This document shows positions 1,841-7,668 of a DNA stretch of 38,428 bases, piece by piece; positions within the stretch are counted from its first letter, which is position 1, and every line of letters starts with the position of its first letter. The notes beneath the pieces were generated by a model that worked only from the letters and a program-made list of their open reading frames with translations, had not been told where the DNA came from and did no database searches. Both the position numbers and the translations under genes were made by a program. The DNA comes from Candidatus Blautia equi (GTDB lineage Bacteria > Bacillota > Clostridia > Lachnospirales > Lachnospiraceae): contig JAGHUU010000118.1 in assembly GCA_018064695.1 (NCBI GenBank), positions 1 through 38,428 of the forward strand. Direction: 5' to 3'.

Positions 1841-1875
1841 AACCTATTGACATAGTAGGATTATGGGTATATGAT
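1841..1875 (+). promoter_or_regulatory. Promoter of sulfur operon with dyad over the -35
   Basis: TTGACA (1847-1852) and TATGAT (1870-1875) are 17 bases apart. The -35 lies inside an imperfect inverted repeat, AAACCTA (about 1840-1846) and TAGGATT (1856-1862), that could be an operator. A Rrf2/CymR-type sulfur regulator would be a reasonable guess, but nothing in the window identifies the factor. Confidence 0.6.
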
Positions 1876-2145: not shown

Positions 2146-3786
2146 ATGAAAGCAAATTTACTTAAGAGAACAGGAAGCATTTTTACCGCAGCAGCACTTG
2201 CAGGAACCTTATTCAGCATTCAGCCTGCAGCAGCAGACGATGGATTCAGAACCTTAGAGGAGATTCAGGAAAGCGGAACCGTAAACATCGGCGTTTTCTC
2301 AGACAAGAGCCCATTCGGATATGTGGATGAAAACGGAGATTATCAGGGCTATGACGTATACCTGGCAGAGAGACTCGGTGCTGATCTTGGTGTAGAGATC
2401 AATTATGTATCTACAGAAGCGGCAAACCGTATCGAGTATCTCCAGACCGGAAAAGTAGATATCATTCTTGCAAACTTTACCGTAACTGAAGAGAGAGCCC
2501 AGGAAGTAGACTTCGCTCTTCCATACATGAACGTAGCACTTGGTGTGGTTTCTCCTGAGGATGCAGTGCTTACATCCCTCGATGAGGTTGGAGCAGATGA
2601 CCAGATCATCGTTATCTCCGGTACCACAGCTGAGACTTATCTCACCAAAAACTACCCGGATATCAAACTTCAGAAATATGACGCTTACGCAGAAGCTAAA
2701 ACCGCTTTTGAAAACGGAAACGGAATCGCGTGGGCAAACGATAATACAGAGGTAATCGCATTCGCTATCGAAAATGAAGGCTTTGAGGTTGGTATCCCAT
2801 CCCTTGGAAGTGCCGATACCATTGCACCGGCAGTAACAAAGGGAAATGAGAGCCTTCTTACCTGGCTGAACGATGAGCTGGTTTCCCTCGGTGAGGAGCA
2901 GTTCTTCCACGCAGATTATGAGGCAACTCTTCTTGATACCTACGGTGCTGATTACGAGGACACCCTGGTAGTAGAAGGCGGAAAAGTAATCGGCGAAGAG
3001 AGTGCTGAGGAAGCTTCCGAAACAGCAGCCCTTGAAATTAAAGAAGGAAACGGCGAGACCATCAAGATCGCAGCTTCCCCTATCCCACACGCAGAGATCC
3101 TTGAGAAAGCAGCAGAGATTCTTGCTGAACACGGATACGTACTTGATATCGTGGAATTTGAAGACTATGTACAGCCAAACCTCGTAGTTGAGTCCGGCGA
3201 GTTTGATGCCAACTATGTAGAGCATGTACCATATCTGAACAGCTTCAACGAGGAGCAGGGAACCCATCTTGTTGATGCAGGCCAGATCCACTATGAGCCA
3301 TTTGGCATCTACCCTGGAAAGAAAGCAGACCTTGCCGATATCGCAGTGGGCGACAGAATTGCAGTTCCAAACGACACCACCAACGAAGCCAGAGCACTTC
3401 TCCTTCTCCAGGACAATGGTCTTCTGAAGCTTGCCGACGACGCCGGACTTACCGCAACCGTAAATGATATTGAAGAAAATCCATACGACATTGAGTTTGT
3501 AGAGCTTGAGGCAGCACAGGTAGCAAGAGTGATCAATGAAGTTGAGTATGTAGTACTGAACGGTAACTACGCTCTGGAAGCCGGCTTCTCTGTAGGAAAA
3601 GATTCCATCGCTTATGAGGCAAGCGATTCCATCGCAGCAAAAACCTATGTAAACATCATCGTAGTATACGAAGGACATGAGAACGATGACAAGATTCAGG
3701 CTCTGGTATCTGTACTGAGATCCGATGAGATCAAGAACTCTATCGAAGAGACCTATGACGGAGCAGTAGTTTTCTTTGAAAAATAA
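2146..3786 (+). CDS. Fused binding protein: family 3 (cystine-type) + MetQ/NlpA
   Basis: This 546-residue exported protein joins two complete solute-binding modules. Residues 1-30 form a signal peptide ending QPAAA-DD. Residues about 44-277 match family 3 amino-acid binding proteins (GTVNIGVFSDKSPFGYVDENG, then DIILANFTVTEERAQEVDFALPY). An acidic linker (278-303) leads to a MetQ/NlpA methionine-binding domain (305-546) with YVQPNLVVESGEFDANYVEH and YEPFGIYPGK. There is no lipobox cysteine, so membrane anchoring is unclear. The whole protein has no cysteine and only two methionines (1 and 128). The downstream genes encode matching membrane parts for both modules, so it probably delivers cystine-type and methionine-type substrates to two importers. 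The ATG at 2146 is chosen because GAGGAG precedes it by nine bases; an upstream in-frame extension overlaps the terminator. Expression is probably governed by the cysteine leader. Confidence 0.9.
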   Translation: MKANLLKRTGSIFTAAALAGTLFSIQPAAADDGFRTLEEIQESGTVNIGVFSDKSPFGYVDENGDYQGYDVYLAERLGADLGVEINYVSTEAANRIEYLQTGKVDIILANFTVTEERAQEVDFALPYMNVALGVVSPEDAVLTSLDEVGADDQIIVISGTTAETYLTKNYPDIKLQKYDAYAEAKTAFENGNGIAWANDNTEVIAFAIENEGFEVGIPSLGSADTIAPAVTKGNESLLTWLNDELVSLGEEQFFHADYEATLLDTYGADYEDTLVVEGGKVIGEESAEEASETAALEIKEGNGETIKIAASPIPHAEILEKAAEILAEHGYVLDIVEFEDYVQPNLVVESGEFDANYVEHVPYLNSFNEEQGTHLVDAGQIHYEPFGIYPGKKADLADIAVGDRIAVPNDTTNEARALLLLQDNGLLKLADDAGLTATVNDIEENPYDIEFVELEAAQVARVINEVEYVVLNGNYALEAGFSVGKDSIAYEASDSIAAKTYVNIIVVYEGHENDDKIQALVSVLRSDEIKNSIEETYDGAVVFFEK

Positions 3787-3858: not shown

Positions 3859-4875
3859 ATGAGCGAGATCGAGATTCGACATCTGACAAAAAAATTTGAA
3901 GTGAATAAGCACTGGATCACTGCCCTTGAGGATGTAAATCTGTCTATAGAATCCGGGGACATCTACGGCGTGATCGGAATGTCCGGAGCCGGAAAAAGCA
4001 CTTTGGTTAGATCCATCAACTTTCTGGAAAAGCCAACGGAAGGACAGGTCCTCATAGAAGGAACCGATCTCGCAGAATTATCCGGAAGGGAGCTCCGAAA
4101 AAAGAGAAGTGAGATTGGAATGATCTTTCAGGGCTTTAACCTTCTGGAACAGAAAAATGTCATAGATAATGTGTGTTTTCCGCTGGAGATCGCCGGCGTG
4201 AAAAAGAAAGAAGCCAGCGCGCGCGCCATAGAGTTATTAAAGATGGTTCAGCTGGAGGAGAAGGAGCGTGCATATCCATCCCAGTTATCCGGCGGACAAA
4301 AGCAGAGAGTGGCTATTGCCAGAGCCCTGGCAACCAGCCCAAAGATCCTGCTCTGTGATGAGGCCACCAGCGCGCTGGATCCGCAGACAACGGAATCTAT
4401 TCTAAAGCTTTTAAAGGAGATCAACGAGAAGCTTGGAATCACCATTGTGATCATCACCCATCAGATGTCTGTAGTGACCAGCATCTGTACAAAGGTTGCC
4501 ATTATTGACAGCGGCAGACTGGTGGAAGAAGGCTCTGTGGAAAAAATATTTGAATCCCCTTCCTCCGATGCGGCAAAAGAGCTGTTATCCGGAGTAAAAC
4601 GCCAGGCTTCTTCTCTGGAGATATTGCCGGCTTACAGAGTAATCCGAATTGTTTTCTCGGAAAATTCAGCTTATGAACCGGTGCTCTCCAATGTGATCCT
4701 GAAATTTGGTGTGCCGGTGAACATCCTGAAGGCGGATACAAAAAATGTGAACGGCAAGGCAAAAGGCGAGATGCTCCTGGGGCTTCCGGATGACCCGGAA
4801 GTGCAGGAACAGATCATTGCCTATCTGAAAGAAAGAGAACTGATCGTGTCGGAGGTGAAAGATTATGCTGGATGA
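3859..4875 (+). CDS. metN: Methionine ABC importer ATPase with NIL domain
   Basis: This 338-residue protein is the nucleotide-binding subunit of a MetNI-type importer. It has Walker A GMSGAGKST (40-48), a Q-loop IFQGFNLL, signature LSGGQKQR, Walker B ILLCDEATSALD and H-loop ITHQM. The C-terminal residues from about 255 (LPAYRVIRIVFSE onward) form the NIL domain, which in E. coli MetN binds methionine and inhibits transport when methionine is plentiful. The gene lies 72 bases after the fused binding protein and overlaps metI by 11 bases, so the two are probably translationally coupled. Unlike the binding protein it does contain cysteines. The assignment to methionine rests on family features; oxidised or derivatised methionine is also possible. 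Confidence 0.9.
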   Translation: MSEIEIRHLTKKFEVNKHWITALEDVNLSIESGDIYGVIGMSGAGKSTLVRSINFLEKPTEGQVLIEGTDLAELSGRELRKKRSEIGMIFQGFNLLEQKNVIDNVCFPLEIAGVKKKEASARAIELLKMVQLEEKERAYPSQLSGGQKQRVAIARALATSPKILLCDEATSALDPQTTESILKLLKEINEKLGITIVIITHQMSVVTSICTKVAIIDSGRLVEEGSVEKIFESPSSDAAKELLSGVKRQASSLEILPAYRVIRIVFSENSAYEPVLSNVILKFGVPVNILKADTKNVNGKAKGEMLLGLPDDPEVQEQIIAYLKERELIVSEVKDYAG

Positions 4876-5527
4876 AAAAGTGATTCTTATGCTCCTTGAG
4901 GGTATCAGGGATACTTTATATATGACGCTGTTTTCTACCTTTGCCGGATATGTCCTTGGATTACCGCTCGGAATAATTCTGAATGTGACCCGGGCAGACG
5001 GCCTGAAACCGAACAGAGTGATCTATCGGATCCTGGATATTACCTGCAATATTGTCAGAAGTATTCCTTTCCTGATCCTTCTGATCCTGCTGATCCCGTT
5101 TACCCGTGCACTGGTGGGACAGAGCTATGGATCAACGGCAACAATCGTTCCGCTTGTGATCTGCGCAGCACCTTACATTGCAAGAGTGGTGGAATCCTCC
5201 CTGAATGAAGTGGATGCCGGAGTCATCGAAGCGGCAAAATCCATGGGAGCCAGTGATTTCCAGATCATCCGCAAGGTGCTTCTGGTGGAGGCAAAGACAT
5301 CCCTGCTTACCGGTATGACCATCACAACCGGCCTTCTTCTTGGCTATTCCGCAATGTCCGGAACCGTGGGCGGCGGTGGACTGGGTGATATCGCCGTGCG
5401 TTATGGATATTACAGATGGCAGACGGATATTATGATCGTGACTGTTATCCTTCTGATCCTGATCTTCCAGATCATCCAGAATGTGGGGATGAAGATCGCA
5501 AATCTTCTGGATCACAGAAAACGTTAG
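4865..5527 (+). CDS. metI: Methionine ABC importer permease
   Basis: This 220-residue integral membrane protein has five predicted transmembrane helices and the MetI-type coupling motif EVDAGVIEAAKSMGASDFQIIRKVLL, which docks on the ATPase. The length and the sequence YRWQTDIMIVTVILLILIFQIIQNVGMKIA near the C-terminus are typical of MetI. Its start lies inside the end of metN. It should form a homodimer with two MetN subunits and take substrate from the MetQ half of the fused binding protein. Confidence 0.9.
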   Translation: MLDEKVILMLLEGIRDTLYMTLFSTFAGYVLGLPLGIILNVTRADGLKPNRVIYRILDITCNIVRSIPFLILLILLIPFTRALVGQSYGSTATIVPLVICAAPYIARVVESSLNEVDAGVIEAAKSMGASDFQIIRKVLLVEAKTSLLTGMTITTGLLLGYSAMSGTVGGGGLGDIAVRYGYYRWQTDIMIVTVILLILIFQIIQNVGMKIANLLDHRKR

Positions 5528-5547
5528 ACAGATTGGAGAATTAAGAT

Positions 5548-6207
5548 ATGAATGTGGAAGTTATGAGAGAGTATCTTCCTCTTTACTGGCGGGCACTTCT
5601 GCTGACACTGAAGGTGGGCTGGATTGGCGTACTGCTGGCTTTTCTGTTCGGGCTCATCTGTGCGGTGACCATTCACCTTGGCATTCCTGTTCTGAGACGC
5701 CTGTTTAAGATTTATATTGAACTGTTCCGAAATACCCCTCTTCTGGTTCAGCTGTTCTTTATGTATTTTGCGCTCCCGAAGATCGGTATTCGCATCTCGC
5801 CGGAAGTATGCGGCAGTCTGGGCCTGGGCCTTCTTGGCGGGGCTTACATGGCAGAGACCTTCCGAAGCGGACTGGAGGGGATTCCTGCCATCCAGGAGGA
5901 GAGCGCTGCAAGCCTTGGAATGAACCGGCTGCAGATCTTCTGCTATGTGATACTCCCTCAGACTATTTCCGTCAGTATCCCCGGTATTCTTGCAAATGTG
6001 ATCTTTCTTCTGAAGGAGACCAGCGTTTTTTCTGTGATCAGCCTTATGGATCTTATGTTTACCGCAAAAGACCTGATTGGAATGTATGCGAAGACCATAG
6101 AATGTCTGACCCTTCTGGTTATTTTTTATTTAATCATGCTGCTCCCTGTTTCCATACTGGGAAGCTGGCTGGAGAGGAGGGTGCGTTATGCAGAGTTTGG
6201 GGATTGA
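5548..6207 (+). CDS. Polar amino acid (cystine-type) ABC permease 1
   Basis: This 219-residue permease belongs to the HisM/GlnP/TcyL family. It has several membrane helices, the family segment FRNTPLLVQLFFMYFALP, and an EAA loop GLEGIPAIQEESAASLGMNRLQIF. Family members pair with a second permease, an ATPase and a family 3 binding protein to import polar amino acids, including cystine. It follows metI by 20 bases and overlaps the next permease gene by 20 bases. It should use the N-terminal half of the fused binding protein. Cystine is inferred from the leader peptide and from the methionine partner, not from the permease itself. Confidence 0.88.
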   Translation: MNVEVMREYLPLYWRALLLTLKVGWIGVLLAFLFGLICAVTIHLGIPVLRRLFKIYIELFRNTPLLVQLFFMYFALPKIGIRISPEVCGSLGLGLLGGAYMAETFRSGLEGIPAIQEESAASLGMNRLQIFCYVILPQTISVSIPGILANVIFLLKETSVFSVISLMDLMFTAKDLIGMYAKTIECLTLLVIFYLIMLLPVSILGSWLERRVRYAEFGD

Positions 6208-6862
6208 TGTACTCTTTAAGGGAAAGAATTTTATCCGCCTCATGGGTGGTTTATGGGTGGCTGTCCGAATCAGTCTGATTTCTGTGGTCATCAGCATTGT
6301 GCTTGGTCTTCTCATCGGCATGCTTATGACTTCTGGCAATAAAATCCTGAAGGCTGTATTTCGCATCTATCTGGAAATCGTGAGAATCATGCCTCAGATG
6401 GTACTGCTGTTTCTTGTCTATTTTGGCACCACGAGGGTGTTTGGCTGGGATCTGGAGGCGGAAACCTCGGCTATCTTTGTGTTCTCCTTCTGGGGAACGG
6501 CCGAGATGGCGGATCTGGTTCGCGGTGCGCTGATCAGCATTCCGTCGATCCAGTATGAAAGCGCCAGAGCTCTCGGTATGAAGGAGAGTCAGGTCTTCCT
6601 GCTGGTCATTCTTCCGCAGGCCGTGCGCCGTCTGATCCCGCTTTCCATAAACCTGATCACCAGAATGATCAAGACCACCAGTCTTGTGATGATGATCGGT
6701 ATTGTGGAAGTGCTGAAGGTGGCGCAGCAGATCATAGAGGCAAACAGAAAGGCTTCTCCAAACGCGGCCTTTGGCCTCTTTGGAACGGTTTTTCTTCTGT
6801 ATTTTATTATTTGCTGGCCGGTAAGCAGGCTTGCAGCATATCTTGAAAAAAGGTGGGCATAA
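6188..6862 (+). CDS. Polar amino acid (cystine-type) ABC permease 2
   Basis: This second HisM/GlnP-type permease has 224 residues, the region RIMPQMVLLFLVYFGTTR and an EAA loop ALISIPSIQYESARALGMKESQVFLLV. The ATG at 6188 follows a strong GGAGAGGAGG site inside the end of the previous gene, which suggests translational coupling. Two different permease genes side by side suggest a heterodimeric channel, as in B. subtilis TcyLM or enteric HisQM. Its partner ATPase follows directly. Confidence 0.88.
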   Translation: MQSLGIDVLFKGKNFIRLMGGLWVAVRISLISVVISIVLGLLIGMLMTSGNKILKAVFRIYLEIVRIMPQMVLLFLVYFGTTRVFGWDLEAETSAIFVFSFWGTAEMADLVRGALISIPSIQYESARALGMKESQVFLLVILPQAVRRLIPLSINLITRMIKTTSLVMMIGIVEVLKVAQQIIEANRKASPNAAFGLFGTVFLLYFIICWPVSRLAAYLEKRWA

Positions 6863-6864
6863 CT

Positions 6865-7614
6865 ATGAATCAGGAATTACTGGAAATCAGACATCTGCAT
6901 AAATCCTACGGGGAGCACACGATCATTAAGGATTTGAATCTGACGGTTCATAAAGGGGAAGTTATTGTGGTGATCGGCCCATCCGGATGCGGAAAGAGTA
7001 CCCTCCTTCGCTGCATCAATGCCCTGGAACCCATTCAGGACGGCCAGATCTGCATAGGCGGAGAGTCTATTCATAAAGATGATAAAAATATTTCTGAAAA
7101 ACGACAGAAGATAGGTATGGTTTTCCAGAGCTATGAGCTCTTTCCTCATAAGACCATCCTGGATAATATCACTCTGGCACCTGTGAAGGTTCAGAAACGC
7201 AAACGTGCGGAGGCGGAAAAAGAAGCCATTGAGCTGCTGGGAAAGGTAGGTCTCTCCGGAAGAAAAGACGACTATCCAAGACAGCTCTCCGGCGGCCAGA
7301 AGCAGAGAGTTGCTATCGTAAGAGCCCTGTGCATGCACCCGGAGATCCTTCTGCTGGATGAGATCACGGCCGCACTCGACCCGGAGATGGTGCGAGAAGT
7401 TCTGGAGGTGGTGCTTGACCTTGCAAAAAATGGAAGCACCATGATCATTGTCACCCACGAGATGGCCTTCGCCAAAGCAATCGCCGACAGGGTGATCTTC
7501 CTGGACCAGGGCGAGATCGTGGAGGAGAGCACCAATCCAAAACGCTTCTTCGAAAACCCGGAAACCGACAGAGCTAAGAAGTTTCTGGATAACTTTCAGT
7601 ATGAGAAGAATTAA
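6865..7614 (+). CDS. Polar amino acid (cystine-type) ABC ATPase
   Basis: This 249-residue ATPase of the GlnQ/HisP/TcyN type energises the two preceding permeases. Visible motifs are Walker A GPSGCGKST, the Q-loop VFQSYELFPH, signature LSGGQKQR, Walker B ILLLDEITAALDP and H-loop VTHEM. The ATG at 6865 lies two bases after the stop of the previous gene and is served by AAGGTGG; a GTG 12 bases upstream is less likely. It is the last gene of the operon, followed by a strong terminator. It lacks the NIL domain of metN, so the two importers have separate ATPases. Confidence 0.9.
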   Translation: MNQELLEIRHLHKSYGEHTIIKDLNLTVHKGEVIVVIGPSGCGKSTLLRCINALEPIQDGQICIGGESIHKDDKNISEKRQKIGMVFQSYELFPHKTILDNITLAPVKVQKRKRAEAEKEAIELLGKVGLSGRKDDYPRQLSGGQKQRVAIVRALCMHPEILLLDEITAALDPEMVREVLEVVLDLAKNGSTMIIVTHEMAFAKAIADRVIFLDQGEIVEESTNPKRFFENPETDRAKKFLDNFQYEKN

Positions 7615-7628
7615 CAGAGATATATTTA

Positions 7629-7668
7629 GAGGGCTATTCGATTTCTCTTTCGAATAGCCCTCGTTTTT
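7629..7668 (+). terminator. Terminator of sulfur operon
   Basis: GAGGGCTATTCGA (7629-7641) pairs with 7650-7662 over 13 bases, with an eight-base loop, and GTTTTTT follows. The arms are nearly the same as those of the terminator at 310-350. Confidence 0.9.

Follow-up and report, generated by a model that had tools for sequence, protein, structure and literature searches.

In the stretch of DNA analysed here (hereafter the window), the 38,428-nucleotide contig JAGHUU010000118.1 of Candidatus Blautia equi, one gene appears to encode two substrate-binding proteins (SBPs) of different families. This raises the questions of whether such a fusion is genuine, which importers its two halves would serve and how its expression is controlled.

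A single frame joins two binding modules

A single ATG frame without internal stops (2146-3786, + strand) encodes 546 residues and follows a Shine-Dalgarno-like GAGGAG at 2131-2136. Pfam placed SBP_bac_3 at residues 47-251 (E 9e-27; 93.9 bits against a gathering score of 26.4) and Lipoprotein_9 (NlpA) at residues 306-542 (E 5e-77; 258.6 bits against a gathering score of 27). The first-pass annotation, made from the sequence without database searches, had described both modules in one clean 546-residue frame with an acidic linker, and the reading frame and Pfam matches bear this out. The parts of the gene are as follows.

2146-3786, + strand: fusion gene for a 546-residue binding protein (open reading frame and Pfam)
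2146-2244, + strand: signal peptide region without a lipobox cysteine (LAGT), with a possible signal-peptidase-I site, QPAAA/DD; processing is predicted
2245-2979, + strand: module 1, family-3, cysteine-receptor-like (Pfam and PDB comparison)
2980-3054, + strand: acidic linker, residues 283-295 at pLDDT <50 (AlphaFold2)
3055-3783, + strand: module 2, MetQ/NlpA-like (Pfam and PDB comparison)

The chain terminates after module 2 and the permeases are encoded separately, so that no binding domain is fused to a transmembrane domain. The AlphaFold2 model consists of two confident modules and a disordered linker (residues 283-295), with a pTM of 0.48. Because of this pTM and the linker pLDDT of <50, a fixed interdomain geometry is not supported.

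The signal region contains no cysteine, and the lipobox position reads LAGT where relatives read LTGC or LAGC; thus, the window protein has no lipidation cysteine. The earlier claim of a missing lipobox therefore stands for this protein, but it fails as a family trait, as most fused relatives have kept the lipobox (LTGC, LAGC) and the window protein is the exception. The lipobox is also absent in L040, L075 and several unfused genus-mates.

The fusion recurs among Lachnospiraceae

A scan for relatives with one genome per species yielded 80 loci. The same domain order, sought in these other genomes, was found in ~66 of the 80, each a single frame of roughly 540-580 residues that encodes both modules; nearly all are from Lachnospiraceae. 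Carriers include Butyrivibrio sp. YAB3001 and NC2002 and Lachnospiraceae XBB2008, YSB2008 and AB2028, and some are isolates. These records bear on the simplest alternative, that the gene is an assembly or binning chimera, for which one could cite the fragmented assembly of the window's genome (82% complete, 333 contigs) and the mosaic ancestry of the operon described below. However, the gene and the gene order recur in many independent records, isolates included, and we regard a chimera as extremely improbable. The view of the first-pass annotation that the fusion is no assembly error is upheld because ~66 other records, some of them isolates, carry it; an assembly artefact is ruled out as the source of the architecture. 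The fusion is probably genuine and functional.

In even genome samples, separate halves are far commoner than the fusion, which was present in 16 of 250 Lachnospiraceae genomes (one match ends at residue 497), in 3 of 51 genomes of the window's own genus and, outside Lachnospiraceae, in 1 genome of a phylum-wide sample of 399. On plasmids, no place with 80% coverage of the protein was found. Fused and separate forms both occur within one genus. Invariably separate halves in relatives, which had been named as evidence against the fusion, were thus not found, yet separate halves are the commoner state. A different pairing was also observed: at L169 (about 5500-7560, - strand), the cysteine-type module shares its chain with a different SBP3 module, and more PAAT genes follow.

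Module identity and likely ligands

Module 1 matched the L-cysteine receptors of Campylobacter jejuni (CjaA, 1xt8; 240 bits) and Neisseria gonorrhoeae (2yjp; 236 bits) with 46-49% identity along its whole length, while the next natural (not ancestral-reconstruction) amino-acid SBP scored 87 bits. Another amino-acid binding protein, 2yln, which we take to be the cystine receptor of N. gonorrhoeae, scored 46 bits. The initial description of this module as cystine-type does not survive this comparison, in which 1xt8 and 2yjp, at ~236-240 bits, lie far above 2yln; it was dropped for a cysteine-receptor type. Judged by these resemblances, the ligand of module 1 is likely to be cysteine.

Module 2 shares 74% identity with 4ib2 of R. 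gnavus, and methionine-bound MetQ structures are among its next matches. It scored below the curated NCBIfam cut-offs for the MetQ/NlpA subfamilies (TIGR00363, 150.6 of 228.85 bits; NF008285, 157 of 374 bits), and by sequence it is a member of the wider MetQ/NlpA domain family only. Because module 2 falls below these cut-offs, methionine is a likely but not a certain ligand; we give methionine or a close derivative a modest preference. Near-whole-length resemblances to the fusion among the PDB matches listed were only to tandem receptors, namely GlnPQ SBD1-SBD2 and the BvgS periplasmic domain.

Operon layout and mosaic ancestry

Five transporter genes, closely spaced or overlapping, follow the fusion gene.

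3859-4875, + strand: metN-like ATPase with NIL domain (Pfam/NCBIfam)
4865-5527, + strand: metI-like permease (224 bits against a cut-off of 212)
5548-6207, + strand: PAAT permease 1 (Pfam/NCBIfam)
6188-6862, + strand: PAAT permease 2 (Pfam/NCBIfam)
6853-7614, + strand: PAAT ATPase (Pfam/NCBIfam)
7629-7662, + strand: operon-end terminator

Both matching membrane sets, metN-metI and the PAAT permeases with their ATPase, were thus found downstream, as the first reading had it. The order fusion-metN-metI-permease 1-permease 2-ATPase is kept in most loci; a second group carries the PAAT genes upstream. Four loci (L038, L039, L041 and L042) have no metNI beside the fusion and a separate metQNI elsewhere in the genome; in these cases, the MetQ half has to work in trans or in some other way.

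Quick tree searches, with groups A and B named after inspection of the data, gave different histories for parts of the operon. The combined MetQ, MetN and MetI tree placed the window inside lineage A with 100% SH-aLRT and rejected grouping with B (p 1e-77), whereas the permease 2 tree rejected a group A placement (p 9e-9). The second half of the fusion therefore travels with MetNI. The mosaic rests on this comparison because module 1 alone does not decide it (tree test, p 0.49) and MetQ alone does not reject grouping of the window with B (p 0.20). Window module 1 is 88-91% identical to group B and to unfused L081-L084, with 76-82% identity to the majority of group A. MetQ-MetN-MetI thus acts as a cassette located between module 1 and permease 1. 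Should module 1 share the history of the permeases, as the module 1 identities suggest, the break in ancestry would fall inside the fused protein. Indirectly, the data suggest that each half has its own pump, MetNI for module 2 and the PAAT set for module 1.

A single clade of all fused MetQ halves was not rejected (p 0.63), whereas a single clade of all fused module 1 sequences was (p 6e-76). Since fused module 1 is not one clade, fusion (or splitting) has occurred more than once; the count of fused/unfused changes covers loci not truncated by contig ends. These results weigh on whether the join was merely a neutral in-frame fusion of adjacent genes, with halves that work as separate proteins and bring no selected benefit. 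Such an origin would fit the coexistence of both forms in one genus and the majority of separate forms, but the fusion has been kept in ~66 records and in more than one lineage of the N-terminal module, it persists through operon reorderings, and the same module has a different SBP3 partner at L169. We consider neutral joining improbable.

A cysteine-rich leader and a covarying antiterminator

Between a strong sigma-70-type promoter and the fusion gene lie a short open reading frame and two RNA structures.

1847-1875, + strand: sigma-70-type promoter, TTGACA-17-TATGAT, 11 of 12 matches
1913-2038, + strand: cysteine-rich leader peptide of 41 codons, MNTQRIYIANHHMCCCRMFISRAQNMARCFDMHCFSPVYCR; the same pattern occurs in relatives and before metY
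1952-1960, + strand: three consecutive Cys codons, the proposed stall site; TGTCGAATG, the same in all 27 aligned leaders apart from TGT/TGC
1972-1981, + strand: 5' arm of the antiterminator, CTCCCGGGCA, 11 nt past the third consecutive Cys codon; pairs with 2056-2065
1989-1992, + strand: second antiterminator helix, TGGC, pairing with GCCA at 2050-2053; two-sided changes at 4 of 4 pairs
2056-2090, + strand: intrinsic terminator, whose 5' half (2056-2065) doubles as the 3' arm of the antiterminator

The leader has Cys codons at positions 14-16, 29, 34 and 40. Across 27 aligned leaders, an ungapped spacer of 11 nt runs from the final codon of the Cys cluster to an arm, CTCCC(G/A)GGCA, that pairs with TGCC(C/T)GGGAG, the 5' half of the intrinsic terminator. 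This pairing (1972-1981 with 2056-2065) is kept in 98% of cells, and in 11 of the 27 leaders a double change has replaced one G-C pair by A-U. For the whole antiterminator, 95.8% of cells are paired, against 29-50% in slid controls, and two-sided changes occur at 7 of 14 pairs; the terminator is conserved in 92.6% of cells. The two structures are mutually exclusive through their common arm, 2056-2065. The hexamer CGAATG (1961-1966), just 3' of the Cys codons and outside the paired arms, is also invariant in the 27 aligned leaders.

Cys-rich upstream open reading frames precede the fusion-type gene in 39 of 78 regions, compared with 7 of 423 other genes at the same loci. At gathering score, Rfam showed no T-box in the window, and the segment 1780-2160 stayed without a match up to E 5; a T-box, SAM or other Rfam element was accordingly set aside as the identity of the leader. 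The peptide fits no family in Pfam or NCBIfam. The sequence data give attenuation good support, and the operon is very probably controlled in this way by cysteine.

The promoter carries a further conserved element.

1843-1859, + strand: promoter/operator-like element CCTATTGACATAGTAGG, an imperfect dyad over the -35 box; conserved, with a putative operator role

In relatives, the element CCTATTGACATANTAGG overlaps the -35 box at most leader promoters. The window copy is the best match in its own genome, and a copy with 1 mismatch lies ahead of metY. In this genome, the importer operon and metY share CCTATTGACATANTAGG with a further gene for an amino-acid SBP (window 1843-1859; G000:C144:4513-4529, L194; G000:C55:7992-8008, L193). 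The genome encodes an Rrf2-family protein, and a CymR-like operator at this site is therefore possible; we list CCTATTGACATANTAGG as a candidate operator of an Rrf2/CymR-like regulator.

The leader marks a putative sulfur regulon

A model of the leader gave 40 matches at E <=1e-5, counted over the first 81 sequences, and a leader was present in 40 of 299 Lachnospiraceae genomes at E <=1e-4; about half of the related loci have no leader detectable by the model. Among 29 matches examined in other genomes, 15 are followed by metY or a metY homologue. Most of the remaining leaders stand before the fused gene, an unfused SBP3, metQ, metN or cysK, and a few before other genes. L088-L115 have the cysteine leader ahead of metY, cysK and other sulfur genes, and near two fusion operons a second leader copy precedes metY-cysK (L020, 1518-1703; L026, 3187-3365). 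These positions would define a family-wide attenuator regulon of metY, cysK and importers. The leader was also seen ahead of two genes identified by reading the sequence, one cyclase-like (L091) and one HD-domain-like (L099). At L057, the space from metY to the fusion gene holds an Rfam Clostridiales-1 RNA (1959-2123) instead of the cysteine leader.

The distribution of leaders bears on whether the MetQ half still serves a methionine importer. Alternatively, this half may widen or store the PAAT substrate, or MetNI may take another sulfur compound (cystine, homocysteine or a methionine derivative), and the operon would then be one for cyst(e)ine acquisition. In line with this, the model detected no cysteine leader ahead of eight separate metQNI loci (L183-L190; L188 has a Met/Cys-rich upstream frame ahead of metN), but did find it at the fused operons of the four genomes that lack metNI beside the fusion and have a separate metQNI, and module 2 scores below the NCBIfam MetQ subfamily cut-offs. 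Against it, metN and metI lie directly downstream in most loci and share ancestry with the MetQ half, methionine-bound proteins are among the nearest solved relatives, and L103 and L101 have a cysteine leader ahead of unfused metQ/metN. We judge cyst(e)ine acquisition unlikely, though less so than neutral joining.

Proposed mechanism

The reading that we favour, with moderate confidence, is a two-headed secreted receptor for sulfur amino acids that feeds two unrelated ABC importers from a cysteine-attenuated operon. The cysteine-receptor-type and MetQ-type modules on their flexible linker would form one secreted receptor, with ligands as predicted above; the family-3 half would dock on the PAAT permease pair and the MetQ half on MetNI. 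Dual delivery to both importers is somewhat more likely than not.

When charged tRNA-Cys is scarce, a ribosome would stall at leader codons 14-16. With the usual ribosome footprint, the leading edge of a ribosome stalled there stops just before 1972. The arm at 1972-1981 would thus stay available for pairing with 2056-2065, which would keep the terminator from forming, and the operon would be transcribed. With ample cysteine, a ribosome would cover the arm during terminator synthesis and the terminator would form. The arm lies ~55 nt upstream of the leader's stop codon and would be re-exposed once the ribosome passes; the off state must therefore depend on ribosome timing.

For two receptors needed under the same starvation, the fusion may offer equal dosage and a single export event. 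In the relatives, one lipid anchor would serve both receptors, and the non-lipidated window version may be released.

Comparison with known systems

Both modules, and leader-peptide attenuation, are of already known kinds. Polycysteine leaders occur in mycobacteria. CjaA (1xt8) and the N. gonorrhoeae receptor (2yjp) are single-domain proteins, to which the window protein adds a second, unrelated SBP type. Module 2 resembles the MetQ/NlpA lipoproteins that work with MetNI (4ib2, 4qhq, 1xs5) in fold, in identity (37-74%) and in its adjacent metN (NIL) and metI; unlike them, it has no lipid anchor of its own, is tethered to another receptor and is encoded in an operon with a cysteine leader. GlnPQ (6h30; PMC8025302) likewise has two SBDs and a flexible linker in one chain, and its SBDs operate largely independently (PMC8025302). 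However, these SBDs belong to one family and are attached to the membrane domain of a single transporter, whereas here two families share a free chain and serve, as we propose, two transporters.

The cysteine leaders of Actinobacteria (PMC1262725) and cysS uORFC-8-2 of Rhodobacterales (PMC8632094) are also short upstream frames with tandem Cys codons at cysteine genes, and uORFC-8-2 also ends in a terminator (PMC8632094). The leader described here differs from them in phylum and is unrelated in sequence and structure, with metY, cysK and importers as its targets and a covarying antiterminator. Clostridial cysteine T-boxes sense Cys-tRNA charging and, by terminating transcription early, regulate cysK and cysteine transporters (PMC2940859); no T-box match was found here, and sensing would be by translation of a peptide. 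A 2010 survey was aware, before its own histidine example from bacilli, of no regular leader-peptide system beyond Proteobacteria and Actinobacteria (PMC2965389). Our literature searches, which covered few subscription papers, found no report of the fusion or of a Lachnospiraceae cysteine leader. New to the literature searched are therefore two SBP families in one free chain together with both pumps, and a putative cysteine attenuator regulon in Lachnospiraceae. The chances are evenly balanced for the combined picture of a receptor shared by two unrelated importers, an uncatalogued leader-attenuator regulon and a MetQ-MetN-MetI cassette swapped between lineages, with a fusion module that arose repeatedly.

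Implications

SBPs are usually assigned one transporter each, and a receptor for two unrelated importers would be an unusual, testable design. Its mosaic ancestry provides natural chimeras for mapping which half docks where. The attenuator would give a handle on cysteine sensing in Lachnospiraceae, common rumen and gut bacteria in which T-boxes or CymR would be expected, and it would mark metY, cysK and the importers as one regulon across the family.
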